64,000 nt of DNA, taken from contig CM070874.1 of assembly GCA_036365515.1 (NCBI GenBank), positions 41,043,083-41,107,082 of the forward strand. Reading direction: 5' to 3'. The DNA comes from Torymus aiolomorphi. Taxonomy: Eukaryota > Arthropoda > Insecta > Hymenoptera > Torymidae. The translations under genes were made by a program, and so were the position numbers. How positions within the stretch are numbered: the stretch's first letter is position 1; the number at the start of each line of letters is the position of its first letter. This document shows positions 20,625 to 48,656 of this stretch, one piece after another. The notes beneath the pieces were generated by a model. It had not been told where the DNA came from, did no database searches, and saw only the letters and a list, made by a program, of their open reading frames with translations.

Positions 20625-21338
20625 ATTTTTAAACTTCAAATCACAGCAATGGTCTACAATTTAGTTGACAGAGCATTATTATTATCACATAAAAAATTTT
20701 GGGAAAAAAACATCTGTCTGGTAAAAGAACATCTAAATAATAATAACTACCCTGCTAACTTTATTGAATATCATGTGAAAAATAGAGTCAATGGAATTAA
20801 ATATGACAATTCTAATAACAATAACAATAGTAGGGATCACATAAAAGTTATTTTAAGTTTACTTTACATACCAGACACCTTTGAAGAAGTCTCCAATAAT
20901 TTAAAGAAATTTGGTATAAAAACTGTTCCAACAATAAATAATATTCTTAGCAAAGTCATAAAAAGAAGGAAAGATACACAGGAGAAAGACGAGAAAACGA
21001 ACATTGTTTACAAAATCGAATGTAATGATTGTAATGCTAGTTACGTAGGAGAGAGTAAACGCATGTTAAATACTAGATTAAAAGAACACATTGCAAATAC
21101 TAAAAAAGATGATGACAAAAAATTTGTAATTAATAGTCACATCAACAATTATAAACATAAGTTTAACTTTGATAATGCTAAGATACTTGATACTGAAAGT
21201 TGTTGGAAAAAAAGATTCATTTCCGAAATGATTAACATCAAATTACAAGATAATCCTATAATATATATAAAAGAACACACTCAGAAATTAAGTAACCATT
21301 ATTCCCAATTATTGAACAAATTGAAAAGAATCAAATAA
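20625..21338 (+). pseudogene. Penelope-like element 3' part with GIY-YIG endonuclease
   Basis: A 229-residue frame from ATG 20649 matches the end of a Penelope-like protein: the tail of the reverse transcriptase (NLVDRALLLSHKKFW) followed by a GIY-YIG endonuclease. The nuclease shows VYKIEC as the GIY half, ASYVGES as the YIG half, the catalytic arginine region NTRLKEH, and a CNDC pair typical of this branch. The frame is open upstream of the ATG and stops just 3' of the Helitron end at 20594, so the element is truncated by, or was the target of, the Helitron. The endonuclease itself looks intact. No reverse-transcriptase catalytic motifs remain. Confidence 0.85.
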
Positions 21339-22560: not shown

Positions 22561-23221
22561 CAAATCCAAATTCCATGCTCAAGCATAAACAAATGCATAT
22601 TTTGTTGTCGAATAAACCATATTTTCATTAATGCCCATAGAATAATGCAAAAAAACGTAGCGTTATTATTTTATAAATAAATCATTATTCGTACCGCTAT
22701 GGATAATGATTATAAATTAACTAGATTTTAATATCGTCATTGATATACTGTGTCAAGTATTATGTCATATACGTAGTTAATTGACGTTGGTATTGATCAC
22801 TTGACTATATTCAAATTTATCAGTGGTATATTTACTTCTGCTTAACGTAGTCTGACTGCCTTTGCTTTCCTTTGCGTTAATTTATTATTGTTTTGTTTAT
22901 TATATGTTAATTTATTTAGTTACTGTCCTATCTTAATGTGAGTAAAAAAGTGTGCAAAGATCTTAATACAATTGACGATGTTTATATTGTTTTTACCAAG
23001 AAAGCAAGGTAACAGTTGTAATCAATTTGATTTCTCAACCTTTGTGCAAAGTTTTCCATCTCATTTTTCACTATTGTTTCTATATTTTTAGATAAACAAA
23101 AACACAATCTTACAAATTTGACGATGTTTTAACATTATAATGAATGTAATTTTAGGTAAGAATGACGATGTTTATTTGTATGTAGTTTAATTATTGACTT
23201 GTATTTATCTCCATATTTTAA
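22561..23221. other. AT-rich spacer
   Basis: No gene seen. Near 23230-23275 GATAAGGATAACAAAACAG and ATCGAAACGTTGCAC resemble 3' tails of Penelope-like elements, but there is no protein to support it. Confidence 0.4.
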
Positions 23222-23518
23222 TAAATTCTAGTGCTTGATAAGGATAACAAAACAGTTATCGAAACGTTGCACAAATAGTAACTCAATTTACTCATTAACA
23301 TCGAACCTTTCCAAAACTTGTCCGTAAGTATGTTGAGAGCGTCTTTCCACCGGAGCGAATTAAAAGCATTCCTAACATCCAATGTTACTACCATGCAGCT
23401 CTTCCAGGAGTAGTGGTAGACCTGCTGTGCCTTTTCTGCTGTGTTAACTATCATTTTAACAGCGTCTATTGTCGAGCGCCCTGATCTAAAGCCTAGCTGC
23501 CTATCAAAGAGGCCTCCG
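23222..23518 (-). pseudogene. R1-like reverse transcriptase fragment (downstream half of a split element)
   Basis: On the minus strand this reads FDRQLGFRSGRST and then TLDVRNAFNSLRW, the fingers and motif A of an R1-clade reverse transcriptase. It stops after about 90 residues in unrelated sequence. Its upstream neighbour in the protein lies at 41187-43801: the two are separated by the 17.7-kb Transib-like insertion and join exactly when one copy of CTCCG is removed. Confidence 0.85.
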
Positions 23519-23556
23519 CACAGTGGTCTGAAACGCTGAAAAAATGGACAAAAATC
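23519..23556 (+). promoter_or_regulatory. RSS-like terminus, left end
   Basis: Heptamer CACAGTG (23519-23525) is identical to the V(D)J recombination-signal heptamer. A 22-bp spacer follows, then ACAAAAATC (23548-23556), eight of nine matches to the consensus nonamer ACAAAAACC. Confidence 0.8.
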
Positions 23557-24427
23557 TACATTAACGCGGAAAATAATTTATAATAAATATCTATAGTCAA
23601 AATCGGTACTTCATATTCTATAGAATAAAATAGGCTACCGCTTCTTTTAATATTGTTGTTATAGTTTTTTATACAGCATGTTAAATAGACAAAAAATGGA
23701 AGTAAAAAAACCACTTTTTCCTATAATTTGCTCATTTTTGCTAGAAAAATGGCGCTAAAGTCTATATTTATGTAAAATTCGATAACAAATCGATTGGTCG
23801 GAACAGATTTTCAAAAAAATTTCGAAAAACACCTCAAAAACGCATTTATTGTTAACAAAATTTACTACGTTTTTTAAACAATTGCATTTTTCCTTACTTT
23901 AATTGTTTCTAATCGAATTGAAAATGTTTTTTTCGAAAAGCTGAGATTTTTTTTACATCAAAATACGTATCTTTAAAATTTTTTTGGTCATATTTTAGAT
24001 ATAGAAAAAATTCGAAAATTTTACACTGAATTAAATATATTAATTTTAAATCACAGGGATTATAAGATTTACCACATCACGAGATCTGAAGCTACTTATT
24101 AGCTTTTTACAAATGCTTCTTTTGTAAAAAAAACGTAAGGAAACGAATGGTGATATCTAATTCCGTAAAAAGAAGGTAAGAACGAACTCAATAATGCGTT
24201 TTTTTTGTTAACAAATTAACTTTTTTTTATAAATAATTGAATTTTAACTTCTTTAATCTTTTTTATCGGATCAGCAATATTTGTATCGTAAAGCTTGGTG
24301 TTTTTAACGTAAAAATGTATATTTGGATATTCTCTAGATTAGATTTTAAATGTAAATTAAATTATTACATATTTTAAATGCTTAAAAAATTTGAATTTCG
24401 CGCCATAAATAACTAATGACGCCAAAC
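23519..24427. repeat. Left terminal inverted repeat of the Transib-like element
   Basis: It matches the reverse complement of 40291-41186 plus 39071-39085 across an inserted MITE. The match ends at the shared GGCGTCATTA. The two arms are diverged by substitutions and short indels, but long identical runs remain. Confidence 0.9.
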
Positions 24428-24514
24428 CAATTATCATTATAACATATAATATCAATTTATTTCTAATAAATTTAAATAAATAAATCAATTTAATAAAATA
24501 ACAAATTCATAAAC

Positions 24515-24704
24515 TTATTCTTCGGTATCTAATTCATTATCAGAAGCATTTTCATCTGAATTATTATCTGCATGACTGATAGTTAATAGCGCTTTCATTT
24601 CTTTGATAATTTTTCTCTTTTTCTTTTCAATAACTCTGCTCAACCATATAAAAGGATCCGAATTTAATAACAGGCGTAAAAACATGTCAGTATTAGTATT
24701 TATC
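24515..24704 (-). pseudogene. Transib-like transposase, last exon
   Basis: It starts after AAATGCACAG in matching phase with INTNTDMFLRLLLNSDPF and ends with an acidic Asn/Asp/Glu-rich tail and a stop at 24515. The NTDMF...LLLNSDP block follows the catalytic Glu in the family. Confidence 0.78.
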
Positions 24705-24783
24705 CTGTGCATTTAAAACAAATTGTGAATAATACTAATTTTACTATCTTAAAATCGGTTTTAAAATTTGTTATATATTATAC

Positions 24784-25089
24784 CTTGAAGATTTTCGAGA
24801 ATGATGTTCTCGTGATTTTTTAATGTTCTTATTAGGACATTCTTGAGCTTCTTCAGAGAAGAATCCAATCGGAAGAATCCAATCGAAAGAATCATGTTTT
24901 CGATTATACGGTATCCATGTATCAGAATAACATGCATGAATGTTGGCATATAATACCATGAATAGAGCGTCACAAAACGACTTGCTGCTTCTTTACAATA
25001 TAATTGGAATGCTTTAACATTAATTTCTTTTCCAGACGATAAAACGGCAAGAATAACTTTAAAATTCTTTAGTAATTTTTCATCAAATC
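24784..25089 (-). pseudogene. Transib-like transposase, exon with catalytic Glu
   Basis: It starts after TATATACAG and ends TCAAG|GTATAA. Contents: YSWYYMPTFMHVILIHG, then SEEAQECPNKNIKKSREHH, which includes the catalytic Glu. A 14-bp tandem duplication (24861-24874 and 24875-24888) between these two segments shifts the frame. Confidence 0.78.
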
Positions 25090-25158
25090 CTGTATATACA
25101 AACTTTAAATATAACACTTTGTAACTATTGAACAATGTTAAAAAATCTCTAAATATAC

Positions 25159-25290
25159 CTGTTATTCTTGCAACGATCTCTGGGTTATCAAAAAAAGTTC
25201 TAGCAGTATTTCCATCGTTCGTGCTACCGTATCCTTGCTTTGCGCTATCAACTTTGATTCCAAGCTCTTTGTGAAGAAGTTTTTAAATTA
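25159..25290 (-). pseudogene. Transib-like transposase, STNDGNTAR exon
   Basis: Contains KVDSAKQGYGSTNDGNTAR and FFDNPEIVARI, a block I recognise from animal RAG1-like/Transib proteins. Its donor is CAG|GTATAT at 25158; the acceptor is uncertain. Confidence 0.75.
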
Positions 25291-25484
25291 TTATTTTTTT
25301 TTCTTTCATACAAGCTTGTTATTCTTTTGTTACCTGGTTATTTGATAAAATACATAATTAATTCAACATTAATAACAGCATATTTTATAACGATAAAACT
25401 AAGGGACAACCAGAGCTTCTATACAATTACATGATTATCAAAATGTTTAGTATATTAATATAACAAGAACTTCGATATGCATAA

Positions 25485-25680
25485 GTATACCATTGGCTCA
25501 GTCGATTAAGTACGTGATTAGTTCGCTGTACGATCCAAATTCGAATCCTACTTCCAAGACTCTGTAACTTATCTTTAAATAATAATATGCCACATATTTA
25601 TGGTGTCTTAAATGTGTTGTTTATAGGGTATTTAATGCACGAATGATAAAACAATAAGTAAATAAATAAATATACAAGTT
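25485..25680 (+). repeat. tRNA-like SINE candidate
   Basis: A TTGGCTCAGTCGATTAAG segment looks like a Pol III A box, and AAATTCGAATCC about 45 bp later like a B box. The unit ends in AATAAATAAATA, and ACAAG...TTCG at both sides may be a target duplication. It lies where a transposase exon is missing. Confidence 0.5.
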
Positions 25681-26317
25681 CGTTAGAAGCACCGGTATTC
25701 TCTTAACATTTATACACAATGTTTATAATTTGAAGTAACTCTACTTACTCTCCATTTTTTGAAAGATAAGCGATAGGATACATGCAGGACACATTCTAAA
25801 AAGCGATTTTTTGCATGTAACATAGAAATTCCCTAGTTTAAAGCAGATTTGTCAATTTTTCTTTTTTCATGTGATTCAAGTTTGTTCATTTCAGAAATGG
25901 TAGCCCTACATATATGACAACATTGATTAGAACTATTATTAATAACATTACACACTTAAAAGACACACATTTATCATTACTATATAAATAAAATTGTTTT
26001 AAAAAATAACTCTTAAAAATAAGAATCGGTATTTTTTATCTGAACGTTTAAACAAGATACTTAAACTGATGTGAAAAACAGGAATTCATAAAAATCAAAG
26101 TATTTGAAACAAAATTTACTTGTATATAAAGAAATATTTGCACAGTGATGCTTTTCTACATTATTTGAGAATATTCTGTACATTAATTTCATGTTCTTAA
26201 TCAAGTTCTTTTAATATTCATATTTTGGAAGGTTTAAAATTATAGAATTATTGCCAAACGTAGTCTGATCTAGATATTACTAGTTTATAGAAAAGTGCAA
26301 TCTTATTTTTTTCTTAC

Positions 26318-26809
26318 CTTTCCATCAATCATTGTAAGTGATAGGTTAAAATTTACTCTGTAGCCATTATAATCGAAATCTTTTAAATTTTTTATCTGAT
26401 CATTAATTATTCTTTCTTCTTCTTTTGTTAATGCATTCGTTTCGTTTGCGAATTGAATACGGATTGGACGACAGAATCGTGTAGAAGATGGGAAAGGGCT
26501 GGTCCAAATAACTTCATTTTTTCTTTTTCTTTCAATCAGTTGTAGTGGCACTAGCGATGAACAAAATAAATTTTCATCGCAACTTGTTTCGCTCTTCCAT
26601 TTTTGTTTATACGAATTGACCGTTGTACCATCGAAACCGTACTTGACTATTAAAATAAACAGTCTCACTACATTTTTCTTAACATCAAGATTCAAAAACT
26701 TAAGTAAGCGCTCTGCGGTGTGATTCAATAAATCTTGTAAAGGAACTTCACAAATTTGCTCGCTAACTAAAATATTATTTGGATAAGCTTCCTTTTTAGC
26801 ATCTAAAAT
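26318..26809 (-). pseudogene. Transib-like transposase, exon with first catalytic Asp
   Basis: It starts after TTAATTAG and ends AAAG|GTAAGA. Contents: AYPNNILVSEQ, VPLQDLLNHTAERL, KYGFDGTT (probable first catalytic Asp), SSTRFCRPI and SLTMIDGK. The SSxxCRPI and TMIDGK segments line up with the RAG1 core region after its first catalytic residue. Confidence 0.78.
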
Positions 26810-27660
26810 CTAATTAATATGAGAATATATAACAGCTATTAAATTATGCGCTCGATTAAAATATATGTTGTAATCATTTATGTTACAGAAATATAAAAGT
26901 ACATCAAGTTAACATTGTTATAAATATAAATTTTTCATTTCTATTTTTTTATTTCACGAGATGTTAAGGAGAGATTGAAACCGATTACTAAAACAAACGA
27001 AAATGAAAAAATTTTTGAAAAGGAAAAATATGGTAGTGGCATTAGTAGTCGCCCACCCCCTAGTAGTCGGACATTTTTGTCGAAATTTTACTTCAAAATT
27101 AGATTTTCTATATTAATAAATTTCGTATTCTATAGTGTGAGTTACTCATTTCGCAATTGCTATGTTAAAATTCAAAATTTTCCAGTTTTTAAATCGTTAA
27201 TCGTAGAATAGAATGTATCTGACAACTAATCTTAAGTGTCCGAGCACTGGTGCCATTACCCTATAAAGTTTTTAATAAATAATTAATTTAAAGAAGATTA
27301 AATAAAAATAGTACTTTTCGATACTAGTGCGATAATATAGTTCTTGCACGAGTGTGAATTTGTCGGCCATTCGAATCGAGCGAAATTCACACTCGTACAA
27401 GAATCATATTTATCGCACTAGTACCGAACATTATTTTATGATACTTCGTATGTTAAGTGCCTTTTATAAGCACAAGTGCAATGGTACTTATTACCCGGAG
27501 TGTCATAAAATACATTAAAATATAAAGAATTTAGTGAAACATGAGCGAGCTTCGATTCACATCTCTTCAAAGATAAATCATTGAAAAATATATCTATTCT
27601 CACTTTTATGTATGATGGATACAGATCATGTGTGATTCAGAGCTGATTGTCTAATTTATA
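26810..27660. other. Transib-like element interior with a foldback palindrome
   Basis: No coding block found. An inverted repeat at about 27313-27435 pairs CGATACTAGTGCGATAATAT and GCACGAGTGTGAATTT with their complements and could fold into a hairpin of about 50 bp. Confidence 0.6.
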
Positions 27661-27755
27661 CACTGAAAAAATAATATTGGAAAGATTATTAAAATCTACA
27701 GTAAAAATTACCATCTTGTGTAGGGAACGCAACCACAGACTGTAAAACTATGAAT

Positions 27756-28528
27756 TTTTACAAGATAGTATGGTAAAATTTCAAACTTACAAATTTTACT
27801 ATACTGAATTATAAATTTTTTATGTAGAAAGTAAGAAAGTAGTGTAATTATTTTTTTTTAAACTTATACATATTTCTAGAGTACTAAACTAATTTTAACG
27901 AAATTTTTTCTTATATTTTATTTTTTTTTTTATGTCTTTTTTGTAACTGAATCCTACATAGGCAAACAAAAGAAAAAATTACTTTAAAGCAAGTGACTTA
28001 TTATTCTCCATCCTTCAGTGTTGATGATTGTTAGATGTAGGTATATTGTACGATGATTAATAGATTATTACAAGTACAACATTTTTAATTAATTGACGCA
28101 ATTTTTTTCGCACGAATTGTTCTGTATTTGTTCCTTAACTCTAATTTTGCACGCTTTAACCTACTTTAACCTACGCTGACTCGCACTAACGCTATTTGCA
28201 AACGCTCGCAGATATTTTAAAGATTTCGAATCGTGCTTATATATTAACCGCGGTCAAGTTCGGTCACTTGCGGGAGTAAAGAGAGCTTTCTTGATGGTCG
28301 CCACCTGGTGTTGGAATCGGAATTTTAAGGCGCAATTAGTTTTGGTAAGAAGTTATAAATAAGAAGAGATGGATTGGAAAATATTACCAAATAAATATTT
28401 CAATAAAGAAAAACAAATAATTAAAAAAATTTCGGTAGTATAAAAGTAATTTTTATAGCTTTATATAAATAAATAAGTATGCTATTGTTGTAATCACAAA
28501 TTTTATTTTGCACATATAAAAATACAAA
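27756..28528. other. CACTA element 3' non-coding region
   Basis: AT-rich with subterminal copies of TACAAGATAGTATGGTAAAA-like motifs and no gene. Confidence 0.5.
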
Positions 28529-31500
28529 TTACATCCAATTTTTTTGTATAAAATGGAAACCATTAGATTGGTATACAACATGACTTATAATAGAGTTATC
28601 TAATTCACTTTTCTGCAAAATTGTACATTTGCGTTTCGCAATATCATAAACCTTGTAAGCTGAATAATGTTCGTCTAAAAAACAATCTTCTAACTCATAT
28701 GCTAATATAAAAATGTTATTTTTCGAATTTTTAAATATTTGAGATACAATAATAAATGTAGGACTACTTTCGTTAAATAATACTATAATTACATCATTTT
28801 TTATTCGCCTTCCCTGAAAATCCATCCATTTCATGGAAGTAATTTCGTACAAGTTTGTAGGTAACAATTTAGAAAAATTTTGATAATCGTGAATATCATT
28901 TTTCTGAATGTTACTTTTTTTTTTACCACCACAAGTATAAGTAGGATACTCTGCTAATCTATTAATAAATTTGAAATTCAACATAAGTTGGTGTTTCACC
29001 GCAACAGTTTCATTAATGTTTTGACGAGATGCTGTTGTTCTAGATACATTTTTACCTACTTTATTTTTTGCTTCGTCTCTTAAACAGCTGATTTTACCCA
29101 ATGGACCGAAGTTTTTCAGAGAGCGAGCATAATGTAGTAAAAAGTGATGTTTTGGTTTAAGGCAATTTTGAAATACTGACTTTAATTCCGTTAAATATTC
29201 TTCAATTAAGACTTCTAAATAGTTATATGTTGTATTATGGACTTTTGAACTTCAAATAATAATAATTATATATCTTAAGCGTAAATACAAAAGCCAGCAT
29301 TTTTCATTTACTGGAATGAAATGCCCAATCATCAAATTCAAGTTATCTTTGAGACAGCGCATTTCACTAGAGCTCATAATTAAATAACCTTTTTTTACAT
29401 GACTTTCGATAACATCACAAGGTTTATTAATACTAGGTTGACAACCATAATCGAACGCGTGAATCTTAAAATTAAGATCTTCTAAAGTTAAATATTTTTT
29501 AATATAAATAAATTGATTCAAAATATTAGCTAAGTCATATCGGGCTACGCCTTCAAGAATGTCGTGCATAGGATCAACAGCTACATTCTCAGTTGCATGA
29601 AAATGTTGAAGTTTGTGTAATGCGCACTTTTCTTTTATTCCAGATTCTCTTGTATTTCCGGATAATAAAAGGGATTCATAATTACACCTATTACGTAATT
29701 CACAACTTCTTTCAGATGTGATTTCATTTATTTCATTCCTTTTTACTAAACACTTATGACAGAAAGAATGTGCATTGAAGCTTTCAAAAAATCCTAGTAG
29801 AGAATGTAGCCCAAGATTGTCGCCTGTAGTTAGAGCTAACTCAAAGTAAATTTGCTTTTTTCCAAAATCTGAGTTTATAGTGATACCAACATTTTCTAAA
29901 AAATATAATTCTTCAATAATTTTCGACAGTACTACTTCGTTGCCTACAACTTGTCGGTCAATACTATTGAACAATGCGAATACAAAAATGTTTTCTAGTT
30001 TCGAAGAATACTCTGGGGGTAGAGAAAGAATGTTGATATACATAGCTCCAGTTTTACAAATTCCCTTATGAGACCCAAGGAGATTATTATTTTCATAATC
30101 ATCGTAATACAGCGATACGGGCAAAACGAATTTGCCTGGTGTCTAAAATTATATATATTATACAATAAAAATGAGATAAAAATTACAAAATATTATAATT
30201 TACACAAATTCATGGCAACATAAAACAAAAAATAAACCTGAATATGCAGAATAAAAGTTTCCCGACGTTCATCTACCGATAGCTTTGGAGGACGTTGATT
30301 TTCATTTTCATTGCTCTTCCTTTTTCTATTACGTTGTGAACTAATCAAATGTGGAAGTACATAGAAAATAATAAAATTTTCTTGTTCTATAAAAGAAAAT
30401 GATATTGTGAGTAAATAAGCCTTTGTAAAAAATATCATTTATTTAGTGTAACATTTTTCACAGTAATACAAAATAAAAAATCTTAGAAATAAAATCAAGA
30501 AAGTGAAATATTGTAAATATACTTTTGATTAATTTACTTTATGTAATGAATTTTTAATAATATTCGTTACTTTAGTTTAAGTTTACAACTGTATAAGAAT
30601 AATACTACATAATGAAATAGAATTAAATTTTATAATGAATAAATAGTAATAAAGTAATCATAACCTGCTGTTAGAATATTGTTAGACAAATTCAAAATCA
30701 GCGCTTGAGCTTCGATGGGTAGGGTCCTTCGTATGTTAAGCAGATCGGACTTTATACATCCTTTAATCTTTACCCAGTCATCGTTGGAAGTTAATTGCTT
30801 ATTTGGATTTATTTGAGCGAAATCATATTCTATCTGTAATTTAACAAATGGTATGTAGCAAATAAAATTTTAGGTTAAATACTAATGTGTATAATAATTA
30901 TGTTACACAACTTACCAACTCATGTCCCTTCTTAATTTGAAGACCCAGAAAATTAGAAATATATTCGTCTGTAGAAACTCCTGAAGCTAGTTGATTACGA
31001 CGTATATCAAATGTCTCTTTCCAATAAGCCGTCACAGTCTCCCAATCATCACAATTAGTTTTCAAAAAATCAAGCTTTCTGTTTTCTTCTTCAGTAGGAG
31101 CAGTTTCATTGAACATATTCGGTTCTTTTACTTTTTTAATTTTCAAAATTCCAACTGTTTTTAACCTATTTCTTTCGTAACAAAAATGATCCCATAACTT
31201 TCCAGACGTGGGAATTTTCAACTTTCCAACTTTTTTAAATGGGATATAATACGTAGCTTCTGCTTCGTTCTTGAAGATTCTAATAACTTCCTTAGTCAAT
31301 ATCTGAAATCTTTTTGAAGAAATTCTGAAAAGTATAAATAACATGTTAAACGTAAATATATTTTTTGAAATGTGATAGAAATTTATTATACATACGCAAA
31401 TCTTTCTAGTTGATCTTCAGGGCTTACGTTACGTAACTGCCACTCTTTTTCTCTCTGTACAACTAACCTTACAAGCTTGCTACGCGTATTTTTTGGTAAA

Positions 31501-31997
31501 TACTGTTCATTGTTATTGTATTCTTTTAAAATCTCCTTTCCTTTAGCAGTACGTTTTAAATAGTCTTCTAGTCCCTATAACAATGAAAAGATATAAATAT
31601 TTTATTGTTATAAACGTAATATTAACACTTTATTAATAAATTGTCGAAAGAAATATATCATTCTCTGTCCTACTACATATAAGACTTAAAAAACACTTAC
31701 TGTTGTAACCTCTTCATCATCACTAACATCTGGGCTCTGCTCTCTACCGTTGTCTGGGTTATTATTATTTGGACCAAGAATATTCCTCACCACTTCAGGA
31801 ACTGGAACTGTGTCACGTTCTTCGTTGTTTACATCTCGTCTCTGATCATAGTTATTGGGTTCTGCAGCATTATTCGGCAACTCAATATCACTCACTGATG
31901 TTTCGTTGTCCTGCCGTGGTTCCTCTCTTTCCGGTACTCCCAGCGAATTTGACACGTAGTTCTTATTAATGAGAAAATATTTATAAGGCTTTTTCAT
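28529..31997 (-). pseudogene. CACTA TNP2-type transposase gene, multi-exon
   Basis: Transposase of the CACTA element. Minus-strand blocks: acidic N-terminus 31686-31997; about 31385-31575 (GLEDYLKRTAKGKEI); about 30910-31326 (SGKLWDHFCYERNRL); about 30660-30836; about 30238-30387; and a large catalytic block 28529-30147. The large block follows the TNP2 order: YYDDYENNNLLGSHKG, INILSLPPEY, TTGDNLGLHSLLGFFESF, HSFCHKC and AVDPMHDILEGVARYDL. GT-AG borders are visible at 30836, 30660 and 30238. One in-frame TGA at 29252-29254 interrupts the catalytic block after a run of Ile. Otherwise the gene reads well, so this is a fairly young copy. Confidence 0.82.
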
Positions 31998-32640
31998 AAT
32001 CTCCGAATTTATATTAAATTTAAATTTATAATAAAAATAATAATGAAATAATTTCTTTTCTGGTGTATCGTATTTAGGAAAAAGGAATAAAGTTACCTTA
32101 AGGAAGAAAGATTATTTTAAGTTGAGGTTACGTTAATTAGCTTCGGGAATTACCTGCACTTTGGCGTTAGACATAATCTATTTATACATTTAAATACTAT
32201 TACACTCGTACACTGTATAAAATTGATTACAATCACATAAATATTGCAATACTTACCAAAGTTGAACGTAGATGCAGATGCCGGTTGCAAAAATCACAAG
32301 CATACGTATTGCTAGTTACACGCTAGAAACGATGGCGCATAACTTTCGATGATTAGCCGTTATTGGCGGTGGCGCGCACGGCACGGACACGCGGGAAACT
32401 GAGACATTATAGTGCGCATGCGCACAGCACACTTCTACGCGCATCTCATGAAAATTACCATACTGTTTTGGATAATGTACTAAGTATTATAATAAAATCA
32501 ACTAAACTGCTGTGTAAATTTTCCTAATTGAGTATAACAAAATTTGTGATTGATTGTTTTTACCATAATGTTTAGTAATTTTTCTGACTTCTCATTTTAA
32601 TTTAAAAAATTTTTTTTGGTAATTATGTTACTTTTTACAG
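31998..32640. other. CACTA element 5' non-coding region
   Basis: Presumed promoter side of the TNP2-type gene, with a short GC-rich patch (32340-32410). No clear TATA box can be chosen. Confidence 0.45.
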
Positions 32641-32769
32641 TCTGTGGTCGCGTTCCCTGCACAAGATGGTAATTTTTATTGAATGTTTAGTACTTTTTCC
32701 TGTACTTTTTTTTCAGTGTATGTACCCATCTTTAGTTAAATTGGCGTTAATTATTAAAGCCGGCGTTAA

Positions 32770-32973
32770 TTATTCTTCTGGCGTCATTTGAGAGGCTTTT
32801 TTCATGTCACATTCACTACATTTAGGTTTCGCAACTTCATCGATTGCGTCAGAAACAATATCAGACGGAAAATATTCCGTCAGACAATAGTCTGCAACAT
32901 TTTTGTTTAATCTTTTTTTAGTCTTAGTCGTAGCTGAGTTATGGGTTACAATAGGACGACCACGTTTAATTCC
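32770..32973 (-). pseudogene. Transib-like transposase, second exon
   Basis: It begins after TTTTTCAG with GIKRGRPIVTHNS and contains TKTKKRLNKN and CSECDMKK. The GRP region is usual for the family before the catalytic core. It runs into a stop at 32770 about 50 bp from the end of the nested CACTA element; no clear donor is visible. Confidence 0.7.
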
Positions 32974-33016
32974 TGAAAAATATATTATTATCCATTGGAA
33001 AAATCCATATAATCTA

Positions 33017-33139
33017 GGGGGGCTGCGCCCCCCAGCGTGCCTTTGGCACGCCATCCCCCCCGCCCCCACACACACCTGCTCCTCATTTCGCTCGTCGCCC
33101 CCCCCCCCTCTCCCTATGTAAAAACTTCGTTTTTACATA
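33017..33139. repeat. Cluster of three small perfect hairpins with C-rich run
   Basis: GGGGGGC-TGC-GCCCCCC (33017-33033), GCGTGCC-TTT-GGCACGC (33035-33051) and TATGTAAAAAC-TTC-GTTTTTACATA (33115-33139) follow one another, separated by a C-rich stretch. Confidence 0.8.
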
Positions 33140-33387
33140 ATGGCACGACCGCAGCGCTCAGAAGAACCTTATACTTTTATTATTGCAAAAATTGTAATAC
33201 TTTATTTATCGTTTTTATCATTTAAAATAAACATAAAGACATCTGCAATAGAATTTAAATAATAGTTATCCATTTACTTTTACACATTTATTGCTTCTTT
33301 TTTGTAGAAGGTTTGCGTTTTAATTCTACATGTATAAAAATATTTAGATAACTTTTTAAATAGCCTATGATGTATATATAGTACATT

Positions 33388-33530
33388 TCGACACGGGTGG
33401 GGAAGTCGATTATTTAGCTGGTGTGACTTTTTGCACGAGCGAAGCGAGTGCGAAAAAGTCACACCACCTAAATAATCGACTTGCGCACTAGTTTCGAACG
33501 GTATTTTATACCACAAGCGCCGAAAAATCA
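33388..33530. repeat. Foldback palindrome
   Basis: AAGTCGATTATTTAG and GTGTGACTTTTTGCAC are mirrored by GTGCGAAAAAGTCACAC and CTAAATAATCGACTT, giving arms of about 40 bp around GAGCGAAGCGA. Confidence 0.75.
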
Positions 33531-35349
33531 TATCAAAGTTGTGATTTTGAGGTTAGAGGGGTATAAAATTTATTAAGTATTAATTGATATGATTAAAGCG
33601 TGCATGGGAATATTGAATATAAATACCATGATTGCAGTTATATTTAAAATTAAAAACATAGTTTTCATAATTTCTATTATAATTATAATAATTGGTTTTT
33701 TATTTTTATTTATGAAAATGTAATATGAAAACAAAATTTTGTTTTAATCTTATCCATAAGGTGGAAACTAGCTGCTCACGGACTCACGGGTGTTCCTAAC
33801 TACATATAGCTATACAATCTCAATTACAAAAAATACTTGCGCACATATGCATATATACACTAATACCGCGAAAAGGAGAAAAACAGAAGGAGAATGCTCA
33901 ATACTGATGCATTCGGCAACGGCAATCTGGCTTAGCCCTGCGACCTGCGTGCATAAATATACTTATACTGCAGCAGTCGTAACGGCTACGCTAGGTACCT
34001 CGACTCACGCTCGTACACACTTTCCGGACCTATGTGACCGTGCCTCACTGCCTCGGCTATAGGCTGCGTTCGCACACCAAGTACAGCGGAAAAACACATG
34101 CGACTCGCGCAACCGCGAGCGCTCCCTGTATGTATAAGATATATATATATATATGATCGCGCACGCTTTCTGCTACAGTTAAGCTGCTGCTTGTGTCTCT
34201 ACTCTCAGGCTGTTGCTGTTTCCAGCAGTAAAACAATGGTTAAAGGGCTCCACCAGTCCTTCCCCTCTAGTTGTTACAGGAAGCTGGTACAGTGAGTAAA
34301 CAACAGCCATTGCTGCAGACTTTTCTTTTGTATGGTATGTTTTTTTTAATTCATCTATCTATTAGTCATATGTGGTTTTTAGGTGCTCAACTCTCCTCGC
34401 TTGTCCCCCAGAATAGGGACTGATCTGCTGTTCATGTGCTTTGCTGATCCCTAACTGAGGCAGTCCCTGACATGAAACACAATTGACGGTCTCTGTCAGT
34501 ACTTTCCTCCTCGGTGGTGTGGTTACTGACAGTGGATCATTGTTAGATGATTCTCAGCAGACTAGCATCCATGGAGTAGTCGCCAGCCTAGACCGTCCAG
34601 CCCTATTTTGCAACTTCTGCAGCTCTAAGTGATCTTCGAGTGTTAGTGCTTTAAAGTGTGAGGGGCTAGGTAATAGGAACTGGGAAATATTATTTAAGTG
34701 CTGTGTGTGTTGTTAAATGCGATAAGGGTAGGTAGTTGTCCCTGGTAATATTAACTCGTCTATTTAATTTCTAAGTTTAGTCAGGGTGTAAGAACTCGCT
34801 TCAGGGTATCTGTTGTATTAAAATATATCATTATGTATTTCGCAGACTTCTACCCACTGAGACTTGCCTATTTAATAGTTTTCTACATGCTGTAAGACTG
34901 AGTCAGCTAAAACATTGCATTCTTTATGCATTGAAATTTACCATATTACAACATTTATAGCTCATACATTACACAAAAGTTTTTTTTGTATATATGATAT
35001 TCCTTTAATATGTGCTTATATAATATTACACAATTTTGATTCTTTTAGTTCAATCGCTTAGGTCCTGGGAACATAGTTAGTAGGTTAAGCTGGGTAATCT
35101 TATATTAAATTTTTTAAATTTGTTATTAAAAATCTTTTTGTAGAAAACAGGGAAATAGATATTTTGTTTCTTTAATTATTCTTCCAATGTGTTTATCCCA
35201 TTGAATATTGTAATCAAATGTAATTTTGTATCTTATTATTATGTTTTGGAAATTATATTATCTTTGGAATGTTATGTCGATTTTTTCTATCTTATTTAGA
35301 GCTATTGTATCGAATACTTCTGTGCAAATCTAATTCTGTTAAATAATAA
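33531..35349. other. Non-coding stretch inside the GGCACGACCGC pair
   Basis: It contains a moderately GC-rich part (33780-34300) with short chance frames and an AT-rich part. I recognise no protein, tRNA or complete repeat. Confidence 0.4.
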
Positions 35350-35895
35350 GCGAAAATTCACTATACGTGTATTGGGGTATTAAAAATCATGTTTATACGT
35401 TTGATGATCCAGAAATTATTGTACATAAAAATGTTAATTGGGAATAAGTTTTGTTTAAACTATATCTATATGCTTTGTATTTAACAGTTTTATTGAAAGT
35501 CAAATTCTTGTATGATAAGCGAAAATCGACGATTTCAGGTGTATTTAGGCATTAAAAATCGTTTTTATAGGTCTAAGCGGCCAGGAATCCATTTTATATG
35601 AAAATGTTAAATGGGAAAAAATTTTGTTTAAATATTATCTACAACTTTTGTATTTAACACTTTTGTGTAAAATCAAATCCTGTCAAGTTATAGCCGAAAA
35701 TCGTCCATTTTATGTATATTTTGGCGTTTAAAATCGTTTTTATAAGTGTAACTTATCAGGAGTTCATTTTACACAAAAGTGATAAATAGGAAAAAGTATT
35801 GTTTAAATATTATCTCCAACTTTTGTATTTAACATTTTCGTGTAAAATCAAATTCTGTCAAGTGATAGCCGAAAATCGTCCATTTTTGACCTTTT
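35350..35895 (+). repeat. Tandem repeat, about 168-176 bp, three copies
   Basis: Units begin GCGAAAATTC (35350), GCGAAAATCG (35518) and GCCGAAAATCG (35693), with a partial fourth at 35869. Shared blocks include AAAATCGTTTTTATA and TTTTGTATTTAACA. Copies are moderately diverged. Confidence 0.8.
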
Positions 35896-36527
35896 TTGCC
35901 GTTTTTCGCAGTTATCTTGGCAAATATTGCTCGTAGAAAAAAGTTTCCAACAGATAAAAGGTGTATTTTAATTAGTTTTAGCAGATAGACCTGTAGATAT
36001 AGGCTTAAAATTAATTTTTCTAGTCATTAAGCTTAAAAATCGATATTTTGAAATATTTATTTGTGCTCGCATTTTTTAAATTTTTCATCAATCTATCTCA
36101 ATTGAGAACCAGGATTTAGGTATAATTAGAGGAGTATTTTCCCGCGATCCCGATGGAATCGGTTGAAAATTCACTGAGATAATCGAGGAACTTGCGTACA
36201 TACGGGCGTACAGACATACATACATCACAGAAAACGCTTAAAACGCACTCATTTTGACTGGAAAAGACTTTTCTTCTATCAAATTATTAGTTTTTGAAGT
36301 CCGACAATTTTCGCTCTGTTGAAATTATAAGGCTCTCCCGAGCAGCGGTCGTGCCTAAAAAGGAAATAGTTTTAAAATACAAATTTTATAGATATATAAT
36401 TTAACATTTAGCGTAAACAATACGTATCCCTGGTAAAAATTTTTACGTGATAAATTATGTGATTAGACACATACTAAAACACGTGATTTGGCATGTATAA
36501 AAGCACACGCTTTTGCACAATGAAAAT

Positions 36528-37030
36528 TTAATTCTTAATTAGATTTCATATAATTAAAAATGAAAATTTAATTATCAATTAGATTTCATATAATTAAAAC
36601 TGAAAATTTAGTTATCAATTAAATTAAATTTAATAATAATGTAATTATTAATTACATAAATGAAAATGAAAATTTAAACATTAATTAGATTTCATATAAT
36701 TAAAAATGAAAATTTTATTATAAATTAGATTTTATCTAATTAAAAATGAAAATGTTATTATTAATTACATAATTGCAATTGAAAATTTAATTATTAATTA
36801 GATTTCATATAATTGAAAATAAAAATTTAATTATCAATTAGATTTTATCTAACTAAACATGAAAATTCAATTATTAATTACATAAATGAAAATGAAAATT
36901 TAATTATCAATGAGATTTTATCCAATTAAAATGAAAATTCAATTGTGAATTAGATATAATGTAATTCAAAATTGAAATTTAATTATTGATTCAATATAAT
37001 GTAATTAAAAATGAAAATTTAATTATTAAT
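36528..37030 (+). repeat. AT-rich tandem repeat, unit about 40 bp
   Basis: About a dozen diverged copies of a unit built from GAAAATTTAATTAT, CAATTAGATTTCATATAATT and AAAA. Confidence 0.85.
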
Positions 37031-37290
37031 TAAATAAACGATCGAAATGCACGGACAAAATTTCTATAGTACTGAAAATAATCGGTATTATCGCGCGACG
37101 TTATTTCCATGTTATCATTATTTTTTAAATATTGTTATAATATTGTTACAATGTTGCTGCAATATTATGTGCGGTAAGGTTCTACAATATTGACCAAAAA
37201 TGGCATTCTTAAAAATTGAGATATATATAGTTTATATCTTTACACGTATAGAAATGTCTTTTTGTCTATAACATTGCAGCAACATCGTAA

Positions 37291-37314
37291 AAAAGAAAGA
37301 GAGAGAGAGAGAGA
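37291..37314 (+). repeat. GA microsatellite
   Basis: AAGAAAGAGAGAGAGAGAG run; simple repeat. Confidence 0.9.
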
Positions 37315-37494
37315 TTCACTTGAAAGCATTGTTGACCCGAATTGATTAGTTTGTTGCTCGAGTTACACTCGTGAGATTTATAGTTACATATTGCAACTAT
37401 TTTTTTAACTAAATGCATATTACTGCTTTTTATTTATCGTGCATCGGGAAAAAAATTAATAACATATACAATAACTAAACTAACCTGGTTTATA

Positions 37495-37760
37495 CGAACA
37501 TTCATTTTTTTCAGAATTATAAGGAATTTTCAATTCGTTGTTTAACCACTTTGAGTGCACTTTTTCAAAAAGACTGTAACTCTTCTTCTGCTTCTTTAAT
37601 TTGAGCAATTTTTGTCTATAATTGTTGTAAAAAGTTGAATGCAATTTGGAATTTAATTGCGAAATTACTTCTTGATTCTCGGTAATGCTGTTCTTATTTA
37701 AAATATAACTAAGGACATTCTTTTTACGTTCAGTATCGTCAAGTATATGAGGAAATCCAC
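37495..37760 (-). pseudogene. Transib-like transposase, N-terminal exon
   Basis: An open frame containing ERKKNVLSYILNKNSITE and FEKVHSKWLNNEL. It ends CCAG|GTTAGT. The next block starts after TTTTTCAG at 32973, and the phase matches (codon split after the first base). The 5' part of the exon overlaps one arm of a long palindrome, so its true start is unclear. Confidence 0.7.
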
Positions 37761-38188
37761 CGAACCTTTAACTGTTTTGATACTTTTTTTTTAAAGTAAT
37801 TTGTTGCTGCTTTTAGCGAAGCGTGCGAAGCACATAAACAAGACAAGGTGTAAAATCTTCAATTTTTACGTAGAAAACCAGTCAAGTAATCCATATTAGT
37901 GTGCCACGCATGCTCAAGTCTGGGGATGTAAAAAGCTGTCAAAAAAAGTCCACTTTTTCCAATTTTTCCGAAAAGTGGACTTTTTTCGACAGTTTTTTAC
38001 ATCCCCAGACTTGAGCATGCGTGGCACACTAATATGGATTACTTGACTGGTTTTCTACGGAAAAATTGAAGATTTTACACCTTGTCTCCTTTATGTGCTT
38101 CGCACGCTCTGCTAATAGCAGCAATAAATTTCTTTAAGAAAAAAGTAACAAAAGAGTTAAAGGTTTCGTGGATTTCCTCATATTTGTA
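37745..38188. repeat. Long palindrome, arms about 210 bp
   Basis: ATATGAGGAAATCCACC...AAAGTCCACTTTT on the left is mirrored nearly perfectly by AAAAGTGGACTTT...GGATTTCCTCATAT on the right, with only about 15 bp between. The outer 16 bp of the left arm belong to the N-terminal transposase exon. Confidence 0.9.
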
Positions 38189-38329
38189 TCGTTATAAATA
38201 TTAAAAATCTCTCGGATTGAAATACTTATAACATTCATTTTGCTGTATTAGCGTTTACCATAATAACAAGGAATTTTAGTTATTTTATTTTTTGGAAATC
38301 AGAATTGACTTAAAATATGCTATGTGTAA

Positions 38330-38385
38330 TTTACATGTAATTTACATGTAATTTACGTGCAATTTACGTGTAACTCATGTGCAAT
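38330..38385 (+). repeat. 12-bp tandem repeat
   Basis: ATTTACATGTAA-type units repeated four to five times with small changes. Confidence 0.8.
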
Positions 38386-38544
38386 ACCAACTGCAAAATT
38401 GCGATAAAATTTTTTAAAACACATAATATACGATACATAATATATGACCGTACTTAGATGACGTAGTTTTGAAACATGTAATCTTTTAAATATTCATTGT
38501 TATAAATATTTCATATTTACAAACTTTTGTAAGGGTATTATTAA

Positions 38545-38766
38545 CCCGTTAAGACCGAGACGAAAATTTGAAAATTTGATAGAAAATGGAAAACAATAAA
38601 TATAATTAATAATGTAAAATAATTTTTTCAATATACAGTGGTTCATACATTATTCTCGCATTACTAAAACGTATGAACGACTCAGATTTGCACAGCATTT
38701 AAAGTTTAAGAATCTCATGGCTTTCAATTTTCATGTGGCGTGTACGTCACGTATGGACATAACGGG
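38545..38766. mobile_element. piggyBac-type MITE, 222 bp
   Basis: Flanked by TTAA (38541-38544 and 38767-38770), starting CCCGTTAAG and ending ATAACGGG. It fits the piggyBac terminal rule but is unrelated in sequence to the element at 3067-6725 beyond the first bases. Confidence 0.75.
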
Positions 38767-39461
38767 TTAACGAATAAACGAAAATCCGTGCAGTATCTTG
38801 ATAATGCATCTCTACAAAGAATCATCTTCTTTTCGTGCATAGATTTGAACTTTCGAATTCGACGATCTTCTTACAACTTTATTATACATAATTATAATTC
38901 TACATTATATGTATGTATAAACATTATGCAGTAAATAAAGCATTTCAAAGTTTCCTTTTTAAAAAAGAAATTGTCAGAGAGATAGGTGAAGATGGCGCTC
39001 GCGCATGCGCACTATGTAGCGCGAATGGAAAATAGGTAATGGAACCTAATAACACTAGTTATTTTAAAATGATTTGGCGTCATTACACGGAAAGAAATAC
39101 CTTATGAAAAATTACTAGAATCTCAGGTAAAGATGGGACATACTCACACTCTTGAGCAATTTAGTATACTTCTAATAATTATTAGCATAGTTCTATTAAA
39201 AATTAATAGAAAAAGTTTTAAAATTTATTATAGTAACGATTAATTTTTAGTAGATAATATGATAAAAATTTTAAATCTAAATTTTAACAGAATAGAAAAT
39301 AATTTTTACCATATTATCTACTAAAAATTAATAGAATTAGTTTAATTTTTAGTCTAAGTTGTACCAAAAATTTAATAGACAGTATAGTAATTTTGTTGGC
39401 GCGAGGGCTGTCGGTAAAACAGGGTGTACCATATGTAGACAAGTCGAAACCTTATTTATAA

Positions 39462-39511
39462 GTGCGGCAGTGGCCGAGTGGATAAGAGCGCAGCTTCGTA
39501 ATCGGAGGGTC
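39462..39511 (+). repeat. tRNA-like head (A box and CGT anticodon arm), split
   Basis: GTGGCCGAGTGGATAAGAG is a good A box/D arm, and CTTCGTAA resembles a Thr(CGT) anticodon loop. The sequence is cut at about 39511 and its B-box half (GAGGGTTCGAGTC) resumes after 40107. The acceptor ends do not pair, so this is a tRNA-derived repeat, not a working tRNA gene. Confidence 0.55.
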
Positions 39512-40106
39512 CCGAACGGAAAATGAATAGGGCTAGCCCTGTGTAAACGTAAGGGCCTAAGTAGGTTTGCCGTAAGGGCCCCCAGCAAGGCGCGTAACGC
39601 GGTGCTGGTATGGCCCCGGCCCGGACTGATAAGGCCTTAATTTGCCTGAAAATCGCCTTACAAAAATATTTAGATATTAAACTAGGGCTACGTGAATGGC
39701 CCTCGTCTGGCCCTGATATGTATCCATCAGACGGTACGCCTTACGAAGCCCTGATCAAGCCTTGATATTGTAATGACATGTCTGGATTTAGTAGGTTAAA
39801 AATAATTTTGTTTCATTTCTTACGTTAATGTCATTACTACAGAGTAACACATCTGTGTTATTTGAAAAAGTTTATTGAATTATTTTAGATAACTTGCAAC
39901 GCTTACAAAGCTGTGCATTATTTAAAGCAGTAAATTACCAAACAGTGAAAAATACGAGCTATGCCCGGGAAAGCCCGCCAGGGCTGGAGGTGCGCCCCAT
40001 TACGCGACTTGTTAAGGGCCTTACCCGGTGCCATGTCAGGACCTTATGATTATTTTAAGGCATCGGATAAGACCCTGGCATTAGCCCTAAGCCAATTTCT
40101 GTTCGG
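39512..40106. mobile_element. Small inverted-repeat element inside the tRNA-like sequence
   Basis: CCGAACGGAAAATG...AGGGCTA at the left is mirrored by TAGCCCTAAG...TTTCTGTTCGG at the right. GGTC flanks both sides and may be the target duplication. The interior is GC-rich with further short palindromes (GGCGCGTAACGCGGTGC region). Non-coding. Confidence 0.65.
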
Positions 40107-40291
40107 GGTCGAGGGTTCGAGTCTCCTTCTCCGGAGTTTTTTTTTTCTCATGAATTTCAACCTCTCGTCAAAATTACTATAATATATTATAAAACTTGAT
40201 AGAATGCAAGTATGTCCGACTTTTAATTAACACTCTAGTAATTTTTAGTGGATATTCCACTAATTTTTCATAAGGTATTTTTTTCCGTGTA

Positions 40292-41186
40292 GTTATTTAC
40301 GGCACAAAATTCGAATTTTTAAGCATTTAAAATACGTAATAATTTAATTTACATTTAAAATTTAATCTATAGAATATCCAAACTTACATTTTTACGTTAA
40401 AAGCGACAAGCTTTTCGATACAAATATTGCTGATCCGATAAAAAAGATTAAAGAAGTTAAAATTCAATTATTTATAAAAAAAAAGTTAATTTGTTAACGA
40501 AAAACGCATTATTGAGTTCGTTTTTACCTTTTTTTTTACGGAATTTGGTATCACCATTCATTTCCTTACGTTTTTTTTTACAAAAGAAACACTTGTAGAA
40601 CGCTAATAAGTAGCTTCAGATCTCATGATGTGGTAAATTCTATAATCCCTGTGATTTAATATTTAACATATTTAATTCAGTGTAAACTTTGCAAATTTTT
40701 CTATATCTAAAATATGACCAAAAAAATACGTAAGATACGTATTTTGATATAAAAAAATCTCAGCTTTTCAATAAAAATATTTTCAATTCGATTAGAAACA
40801 ATTAATGAAAGGAAAAATGCAATTGTTTAAAATACATCATAAATTTTGTTAAGAATAAATGCGTTTTTGGGGTGTTTTTCGAAATTTTTTTGAAAATCTG
40901 TTCCGACCAATCGATTTGCTATCGAATTTTACATAAATATAGACTTTTAGCGCCATTTTTCCAGCAAAAATAAGCAAATTATAGGAAAAAGTGGTTTTTT
41001 TACTTCCATTTTTTGTCTATTTAACATGCTGTATAAAAAACTATAACAACAATGTCCAAAAACGCGGTAGCCTATTTTATTCTATAGAATATGAAGTACC
41101 GATTTTAACTATAGATATTTAATATAAATTATTTTCCGCGTTAATGTAGATTTTTGTCCATTTTTTCAGCGTTTCAGACCACTATG
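40292..41186. repeat. Right terminal inverted repeat of the Transib-like element
   Basis: Counterpart of 23519-24427. Its innermost 15 bp (39071-39085) were separated by the TA-flanked MITE 39086-40289. Confidence 0.9.
41149..41186 (-). promoter_or_regulatory. RSS-like terminus, right end
   Basis: On the minus strand: CATAGTG (41180-41186, one mismatch to the heptamer), the same 22-bp spacer sequence, and ACAAAAATC (41149-41157). Both ends have the long-spacer layout, so there is no 12/23 asymmetry. Confidence 0.8.
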
Positions 41187-42617
41187 CTCCGGCGGCCTGA
41201 ATCGCGGCCTGCAGTCGCGGTCTTAAGCTTCTCAAGAACCTTACCCGCGGTGTCCAGCATGCACCGGCAGTGTTCAGGTCTCCCATGCCAATGAGAACCA
41301 GTTGCTATGCCGTTCACCGCTTGCAGAAGCTATCCTGCCTGAGGCATCCGTTGTACATGTCTAGTAGCAGTTGCGGGCAAGCCCTCACCGCGACCTTCAA
41401 TGCTTCTGTCGGGATGCCATCCGGCCTGGAAGCCCTTCTGTTCTTGAGTGAACCTACCGCGTGCGTTAACTCTTTCTCTGAGATTAAGGGAATCTCACCT
41501 ATCTCTGATACCACGTCTGGTCCTCTAGCTCTATGGTCCGGAAAGAGCTCGTTTACGATCCTGTCCATCGTCCGTACGTCTTGTGTTATATTGGATGTTT
41601 GGAGATTCAGTCGCCGCATTGCTATTTGGTACCCTTTTCCCCAGACATCTGCATTAACATCTTCGATCAACAGTCTAATCTTTACGTTCTTACTCTTGTT
41701 TATCGCCCACTGTAGTGCTTTCTTCGCGACCTGGTACTCGGCGCATCTAAGGGTAACTTCCACCCCGCGCTTCCTAGCTCTAGTTGCTTTCCTGCGGCAC
41801 TGAGTGGCTGTTCGTCTCAGATTCGCAATTTCGTCCGTCCACCAATATGCAGCCTGTCTCTTTCCTGTCGTCTTTTTTAGCGGCATCGATGCTTTGTATG
41901 CCCGGTATATAACTCGCATTCCCTCATCCAAAATCTCTTCCGCTGACCCGCGGTCGTGCCCTGATCTTTTCATTTTATCGTACCCACTACAGCTCATCAG
42001 GCTGAACACGTCCGCGTTCAGCTTAGCGGGATTGAACTTGAATTCTTTTGATACAGGCTGTCGATCTCGGGGTTCCGATTGCTATTGTATCGAGAAAGAG
42101 ATATACTGGTGGTCGCTTGCGGTAAAACCCTCTAGCATCCTCCAGTCTTTTACTCTACAAGCTAATCCCTCCGATGCCAGTATGACATCGATTATCGTCT
42201 GCCTATACCCTGTCTCCTAAAGGTCGTCGTTGTGCCTCTATTAAGCAAAGTGAGCCCAATTCTGGCTGCCATCTCTACTATAGCCTTACCTCTCGTGTCC
42301 GTCTCCTCACCCCATTCACGGGCTTTCGCGTTTAGGTCACCTCCCATGACTACGTGTCCCGAGCATTCCCGAATGTCATCCTCGAGCGCGCATACTTTCG
42401 CCCTAAACGCCTCGCGGTTTTCACTTGGGATTAAGTAGGAGCTAAAGTATGTTACACCCCTGCTTTTAATCCAGGCGTACCCCACTCCTCGTCCTTTTTT
42501 CTCAACCGGTACCTTCCCAAGGTTCGCGATCCAGATGGCAGCCGTCCCTGTATCGTCCGAGATCCACGACGGTCCTTTCGCGTTCATATACTGTTCGTTT
42601 AGAAGCAGTAAGTTCAC
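41187..42617 (-). pseudogene. R1-like ORF2 (endonuclease, start of reverse transcriptase), broken
   Basis: 42192-42617 holds the middle of the APE endonuclease (VVMGGDLNAKAREWG motif, TTTTFRRQG). 41314-42009 holds the linker and the beginning of the reverse transcriptase (RASRPDGIPTEALK). Stops and frame changes lie between them and near 41310, and the reading continues to the insertion point at 41187. The catalytic RT motif A is on the far side of the insertion (23222-23518). Confidence 0.83.
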
Positions 42618-44564: not shown

Positions 44565-46012
44565 CTACACTGAGAAAAAAAATTCTTTGAATCAAAAACC
44601 GGTTTCTTTGATTCAAAGAAATGCATAAAATAAATGAATATTCTTTGAATCAATGAAAATTTCATTGTAATTAAGAAACGCGTCTATACATCAAATAAAT
44701 ATTTTATTGCATCAAAAAAATCAATGAACTAGGTACGGTCAATGCATTATTTTATTAAACTAAAGAAATAATCTTTGGCTCAATACAAAGAAATTTTTTA
44801 TTTAAAAAAATTGATGTCATTCATTTGACGAAATACATTTCAAGAAATATTTATTCAGTCTAAAGAAACATTTTTTCTTTCCAAAGTTGAATCTTTTGTT
44901 AAAAAAAATAACGACTTTGAATTAAAGAAATCTGTCTTCTAATGAAATTCACTAAAACCAAAGAAAGCGTGCATACTAAGAAAGGTTTATTTTTTTGATT
45001 CTATGCTACAGATAGTAACTGCAAAGAAAGTATTTTATTGAACTTAAGTTAATTTCTTCCGATGGTTTTACTTTCAAAGAAGCGCTTATTGATACGAAAG
45101 TCATATATATTTGATTGAATACCATAATTCTTAAAAGCAAATAAATATTTCAATTTTTCCACTATAAATATTTTTAATGTAAATCATAACTTCAAAGAAA
45201 GCATGCATACTAAGAATAGTCAATGTTTTTGACTCAATGATACAGGTATTAACGGCAAAGAAATGATTTTCTTAAACATAATGTAAATTTCTTACGATGT
45301 ATTTGTTAATTTTAAAGAAACTCATATTTACGGAAAAGCAATATATTTTTGATTGAATACAATAATTTTTAACCACAAATAAATATTTCATTGTTTCCAC
45401 TTTAAATATTTTTAATGTAAATCATGACTTCAAAGAAAGCATGCATACTAGGAATAGTCAATGTTTTTGACTCAATAATACAGGTATTAACGGCAAAGAA
45501 ATGATTTTCTTGAACATAATGTAAATTTCTTATTATGTATTTCTTAATTTCAAAGAAACTCATATTTACGGAAAAGTAATATATTTTTGATTGAATACAA
45601 TAATTTTTTTCGAACTAATAAATATTTCATTGTTTCCACTATAAATATTTTTAACGTAAATCATAACTTCAAAGAAAACATGTATACTAGGAATAGTCAA
45701 TGTTTTTGACTTAATAATACAGGTATTAACGGCAAAGAAATGATTTTCTTGAACATAATGTAAATTTCATACGATGTATTTGTTAATTTCAAAGAAACTC
45801 ATATTTACGGAAAAGTAATATATTTTTGATTGAATACAATAATTCTTTTCGAACTAATAAATATTTCATTGTTTCCCCTTTAAATATTTTTTATGTAAAT
45901 CATAACTTCAAAGAAAGCATGCATACAAGGAATAGTCACTGTTTTTACTCAATGATACAGGTATTAACGGCAAAGAAATGATTTTCTTGAATATAATGTA
46001 AATATCTTATGA
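44565..46012. repeat. Tandem repeats of about 238 bp with AAAGAAA/TTCTTTG motif
   Basis: Three to four good copies (landmark GCATGCATACTA..GAATAGTCA at about 45198, 45437, 45675 and 45916), preceded by more diverged related sequence from 44565. The left edge CACTGAGAAAAAAAATTC looks like a transposon terminus, but no matching right end was found. Confidence 0.8.
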
Positions 46013-46301
46013 GTAGTATATGGACTGGTATAGCGAGACATATCATATTACAAGGGGGGAGGGGGGCGCCGCGCCGCGGGTGGGGTCATTAAGTTAAGTG
46101 TTATGTAAACAGTAGCTGCACGGTAGCTAATGACCCATGTCAAGGGCCCATGTAAATGGGGCTATTGTTTTCAAACCCGCTACTGTTTTGTAAACAAGCC
46201 ACCCATTAACAATGGGTAATTAGCTACTGTTTATATAACAGTTATACCCTCTTGACACCTTTATGTAATATGATACGCGCTATACCAGACCATGTACTAG
46301 A
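46013..46301. repeat. Palindromic MITE-like unit, about 290 bp
   Basis: TAGTATATGGACTGGTATAG and CATATCATATTACA at the left are mirrored by the right end (CTATACCAGACCATGTACTA). Inner inverted segments share TAACTGTTT/AAACAGTAGCT and CCCATTTAC-type blocks. Non-coding. Confidence 0.75.
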
Positions 46302-46521
46302 GAGAGAGAGAGAGGACGCACACATCCACCCACGCACACCCGCCCGCCCCACCCACCCACCCCCACCCCCACACACTCACATCCACCAACCCACCCACAG
46401 AGAGAGATGGCGCACCCACCCACACCCACCCACCCACCCACTCACACCCACCACCCACTCACAGCTATCCACCCACCCATCCACCCACCCACCCACTCAC
46501 ACCCACCCATCCACACTCACC

Positions 46522-46557
<36 letters not shown>

Positions 46558-46849: not shown

Positions 46850-46858
46850 GTTTTTGTG

Positions 46859-48620: not shown

Positions 48621-48656
<36 letters not shown>

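Follow-up and report, generated by a model that had tools for sequence, protein, structure and literature searches.

A multi-exon Transib-type transposase gene between 0.9-kb inverted repeats, inserted in a LINE of Torymus aiolomorphi

The stretch of the Torymus aiolomorphi genome analysed here (the window; 64,000 nucleotides of contig CM070874.1, positions 41,043,083 to 41,107,082, GenBank assembly GCA_036365515.1) contains a 17,668-bp element in which a multi-exon gene of the RAG1/Transib type lies between two terminal inverted repeats (TIRs) that are 92.5% identical and end in recombination signal sequence (RSS)-type signals. The element sits in a long interspersed nuclear element (LINE), flanked by 5-bp target site duplications (TSDs), and is almost certainly an inactivated autonomous Transib DNA transposon. 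A preceding sequence-only reading had assigned it to the RAG/Transib superfamily; our sequence and profile searches agree with this, with the qualification that it is a Transib and not an intermediate to RAG.

The repeats had been put at 910 bp and measure 897 bp by blastn and MAFFT. In the blastn alignment, which starts one base outside each end, they are 92.47% identical over 903 columns (E 0.0), and in the MAFFT alignment they differ at 58 of 892 ungapped sites (Kimura two-parameter distance of 0.068). Differences number 11 in 299 sites within TIR columns 1–300 and 47 in 593 in the rest (Fisher p 0.014), a cut that was picked post hoc and from which we draw nothing. Within the left TIR, positions 327–528 and 683–880 form an internal direct repeat of about 200 bp that is 68% identical. 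At both ends, a heptamer (on the left CACAGTG, 7/7) is followed by a 22-bp spacer and the nonamer ACAAAAATC, which agrees at 8 of 9 positions with ACAAAAACC, the RSS nonamer consensus; counting both strands of the element, 33 of 35,216 positions have an equally good nonamer at spacers of 11–13 or 20–23. The right end matches the terminal 45 bp of the left end at 44 of 45 positions, and the window holds no other match of at least 28/45 to this sequence.

The 5-bp, GC-rich target duplication described before is present as CTCCG on both sides of the element. When the flanks are joined with one CTCCG, a single reverse-transcriptase (RT) frame runs across the junction and aligns across it to another LINE in the window, at 8–12.5 kb (E 2.4e-65 for linked stretches). 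This frame, together with CTCCG on both sides, shows that the element entered the LINE with a 5-bp duplication and that its borders are exact. The duplication also fits a Transib, since the TSDs of Helicoverpa armigera Transib miniature inverted-repeat transposable elements (MITEs) have the form CNNNG (PMC7764229). Pfam RVT_1 is recognised on the left-flank open reading frame (ORF) at 23218–23577 (E 1.7e-7) and was not called on the right-flank ORF tested (41314–42081). The host LINE is itself broken, as its joined RT frame has two stops further upstream. As for the other LINE (8092–12503), its frames are largely open, its first ORF ends in what looks by eye like a zinc knuckle, a Pfam endonuclease domain lies at 9485–10747, and its RT is recognised by alignment to the Transib-hosting LINE.

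The transposase gene is on the minus strand (Table 1). Six exon-like blocks had been proposed; their RAG1/Transib type is confirmed by phmmer with the HzTransib protein and by tblastn for exons 3, 4 and 5–6, whereas their number is not, as we count eight stretches, seven with coordinates from a splice check and exon 4 by matches only. All five donors inspected read GT, and four acceptors read AG. The stretch that holds exons 5a and 5b matches the HzTransib structure (PDB 6pqn) at E 1.1e-23 (phmmer), and the joined exon translation does so at E 1.4e-88. Of the candidate DDE residues, the D of GFDG and the D of MIDGK are present and invariant in the alignment; in the last block, SEEAQE is reached only past a frame break. 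This copy of the transposon is dead: both parts of exon 2 and exon 4 carry in-frame stops, the frame of exon 5b is broken, and exons 1 and 2 are interrupted by inserts. About 20 residues of the relatives are missing between exons 4 and 5a, where a gap of 0.46 kb probably holds another insert.

Table 1. Positions in the window of the element, its target site duplications, its gene and the elements nested within it.
Feature	Position	Strand	Length	Remarks
Target site duplication, left copy	23514–23518		5 bp	CTCCG
Whole Transib element	23519–41186		17,668 bp	bounded by inverted repeats and CTCCG
Left terminal inverted repeat	23519–24415	+	897 bp	blastn, MAFFT
Exon 6 and stop codon	24515–24704	-		99 bp from inner end of left TIR
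Exon 5b	24784–25089	-		C-terminal block; frame broken
Exon 5a	25159–25276	-		NDGNTAR motif; upper border placed from matches
Exon 4	25740–25955	-		tblastn, six relatives, 39–48% identity; in-frame stop
Exon 3	26318–26809	-		KYGFDG and TMIDGK motifs; phmmer 6pqn E 3.9e-21; tblastn; splice signals
Exon 2, second part	27604–27660	-		in-frame stop; GT donor
Nested element, CACTG...CAGTG ends	27661–32718	-	5,058 bp	TA on both sides; transposase-like ORFs 28529–30142; in exon 2
Exon 2, first part (2a)	32719–32972	-		AG acceptor; in-frame stop; interrupted by the CACTG-ended insert
Nested element, GGCACGACCGC ends	33142–36355		3,214 bp	intron between exons 1 and 2
Exon 1	37485–38239	-		start codon inferred by eye; foldback insert inside; GT donor at end
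Nested foldback element	37740–38186		447 bp	TATCGT target duplication; within exon 1
Nested TACACGG-ended element, TACACGGAAA ends	39084–40291		1,208 bp	upstream of exon 1; 2-bp overlap with aligned TIR inner edge
Right terminal inverted repeat	40290–41186	-	897 bp	blastn, MAFFT
Target site duplication, right copy	41187–41191		5 bp	CTCCG

Among 7,995 scored candidates, 435 proteins are homologs at E ≤0.001, of which the best 120 were listed. A profile built from 24 relatives recovers HzTransib at E 7.8e-192, ProtoRAG at 9.9e-16 and, with E values of 3.8e-11 to 2.3e-8, 15 RAG1 chains. These matches, together with those of the joined translation, assign the element to the Transib side of the RAG/Transib superfamily. 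The profile check of the blocks comes out in favour with this family profile, and negative with the Pfam RAG1 cut-off, which two of nine relatives scanned (P0045 and P0014) do pass. An exceedingly improbable alternative is that the element is a RAG-like (RAG1L-RAG2L) transposon in which the RAG2L gene has been lost or lies hidden beneath the insertions. Both kinds of transposon have RSS-type ends and a 5-bp TSD (PMC7204232), and with ProtoRAG/RAGL transposons and vertebrate RAG1 the element shares CAC-type ends, the 5-bp TSD and a remote homology seen via the family profile. The direct similarity, however, is not significant: the next match of the joined translation after HzTransib is ProtoRAG (6b40) at E 0.52, and the core is not closer to RAG1/RAG1L than to Transib. 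Nor did a partial scan, covering 10 of the 55 ORFs (≥45 aa) that overlap 32980–40300 and eight stretches inside the element, yield a Kelch or PHD match or a RAG2-like gene; the longest other ORFs in the element, at 28529–30142, sit within a nested element. Finally, with only 99 bp between the stop codon and the left TIR, a convergent second gene would not fit on that side.

Several observations weigh against the interpretation as a Transib transposon. No protein of the window passes the Pfam RAG1 cut-off: the single exons score above no Pfam cut-off, and the joined query misses PF12940 (RAG1) as well. The HzTransib match runs from query residue 149 on and so begins after exon 1 and most of exon 2a; the relatives used in tblastn map to exons 3, 4 and 5–6 (six of six) and none of them to exons 1 and 2. 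Exon 1 matches the N-termini of the relatives weakly (12 of 120 at E ≤1, best 4.6e-5), and so does exon 2a their N-terminal parts (17 of 120 at E ≤1, best 8.6e-5), in both cases without composition correction. The splice ends of exon 4 are not established, this exon being bounded by matches only, and the upper border of exon 5a comes without an acceptor. Of the CACAGTG termini claimed for both ends, only the left one stands: the right end reads CATAGTG (6/7), its CAC triplet altered by one change, which we infer to be a later change of CAC in the decay of a dead copy. Lastly, the ends and the length of the element rest on one copy, no sister copy having been seen, and since autonomous Transibs typically occur in one or few copies (PMC4411706), few sister copies may exist.

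Another reading is a composite, with the Transib gene as a guest within a foldback or non-autonomous element that owns the long repeats. The 897-bp repeats do far exceed the 40–45 bp of four Drosophila Transibs (PMC10299278), but RSS-type signals and a 5-bp TSD of the Transib type are found at these very ends, and the gene stops 99 bp from one of the repeats. In addition, the terminal 45 bp are not repeated inside the element, in a search that did not extend to the ends of a different Transib family; neither these 45 bp nor CACAGTG recur within the TIRs, and a further CACAGTG inside the element lies at 26141. We therefore hold a composite origin to be very improbable and retain an autonomous Transib, gene and ends together.

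Among the best 120 of the 435 homologs, 15 carry species names, all of them insects, and eight of these 15 are Hymenoptera. In a tree of 121 rows, the query is sister to protein P0015 of Trichogramma kaykai with an SH-like approximate likelihood ratio test (SH-aLRT) support of 99, the two being 53% identical over 341 columns; their grouping with P0001–P0003 receives a support of 67, and that which includes Andrena P0007 one of 95. A tree of 51 rows recovers the pair of query and P0015 at 97; in it, the branch of P0015 is long. This nearest relative is known as an 878-aa predicted protein only, with unrelated sequence at both its ends. As neither tree includes RAG rows, they do not bear on a RAG-like origin. 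Viral contigs, searched with one exon stretch, the 24-row Transib alignment and 25 bp of the TIR, and prokaryote contigs, searched with the alignment and the 25 bp, gave no relative, and nothing follows from this.

That the element was later inflated by nested insertions, as had been suggested, is borne out for at least 9,927 of its 17,668 bp, the total of the four nested elements with definable ends, which leaves at most 7,741 bp for the original element. It was probably shorter still, because this figure includes the tandem repeats at 36.5–37.0 kb and the sequence that separates exon 4 from exon 5a. For the protein encoded at 28529–30142 in the CACTG-ended element, 22 relatives were found at E ≤0.001, six of them with species names (three Hymenoptera, two fish and one mosquito). 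None of seven relatives scanned has a Pfam family above the cut-off, one of them showing weak, sub-cut-off matches to Transposase_21 and DUF4218, as in CACTA elements. Inside the TACACGG-ended element, at 39460–40145, we noticed by eye a tRNA-like sequence split by an insert of about 0.6 kb, whose ends are of the CCGAACGG type and which is flanked by GGTC on either side. ARAGORN reports no tRNA in the window or in the roughly joined tRNA-like remnant, the latter being a weak negative because a few insert bases remained in it.

Elsewhere in the window, positions 1–2732 are taken up by two satellite arrays that adjoin each other, their periods being 468 and 465 bp with 99% matches, followed by a 294-aa open ORF with a DDE_Tnp_1_7 domain (4659–5543), presumably of the piggyBac type, a Helitron at 15600–19640 with Helitron_like_N (16648–17910) and PIF1 helicase (18614–19630) domains, and an ORF with a GIY-YIG domain (20625–21338), as in Penelope-like elements. 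On the minus strand, a block at 46000–64000, which we take to be Polinton/Maverick-like, encodes a DNA polymerase B (56850–59636), an rve integrase (53372–54442), a Pox_A32-like ATPase (55598–56830), a sub-cut-off match to an adenovirus-type protease (49333–50049) and a 447-aa ORF without a Pfam match (50676–52016).

Long ends had been called unusual for Transib, as a normally short-ended group. This holds in comparison with transib1-4 of Drosophila melanogaster, members of the same superfamily of 2,167–2,883 bp with TIRs of 40–45 bp (PMC10299278, Table 1), and MITEs of Transib in Helicoverpa armigera have TIRs of 13–27 bp (PMC7764229). It does not hold in comparison with Hztransib of Helicoverpa zea, described as long-ended already in 2007, with the TIR length given in a figure (PMC1852546), so that short ends are not a Transib rule. 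The long ends are a variant within the Transib superfamily that has been noted before. Hztransib resembles the element described here in its transposase core, 5-bp TSD and long TIRs, but measures 3,518 bp with a deduced protein of 489 aa (PMC1852546), whereas the present element is multi-exon, about 7.7 kb at most after subtraction of the inserts, and dead. The TIRs of Hztransib are also reported to resemble the RSS nonamer little or not at all (PMC8289069), in contrast to the 8/9 agreement found here. Symmetric spacers of 20–22 bp are known in Transib (PMC8355894).

By analogy with the Transib and RAG literature (PMC8355894, PMC7204232), the living transposase would have recognised these ends, excised the element and inserted it elsewhere, duplicating 5 bp of the target. 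The first three bases of the heptamer, CAC, are described as invariant and functionally critical (PMC7204232), and the CAT right end would for this reason probably not be cut. Because only the outer 38 bp are RSS-like, the likeliest role for the other ~0.86 kb of each repeat is a passive or an enhancing one, in the form of sub-terminal sites or of a repeat grown by duplication. A more specific scenario, which we consider rather unlikely, is that a hymenopteran Transib lineage evolved ~0.9-kb repeats with an internal 200-bp duplication, whose sub-terminal repeats served as extra transposase-binding or pairing sites beside RSS-type 22/22 ends; an end arrangement of this inverted repeat/direct repeat (IR/DR)-like kind was not found for Transib in the literature searched, as far as its excerpts go.

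The element, mostly ordinary in itself, leaves the story of RAG origin unchanged. It adds one long-ended, RSS-ended Transib, probably hymenopteran, to the relatives of RAG1, together with a precise record of its insertion in the form of an empty LINE site, and intact long-ended sisters, if they exist, would permit a test of sub-terminal sequence for a RAG1-type transposase.

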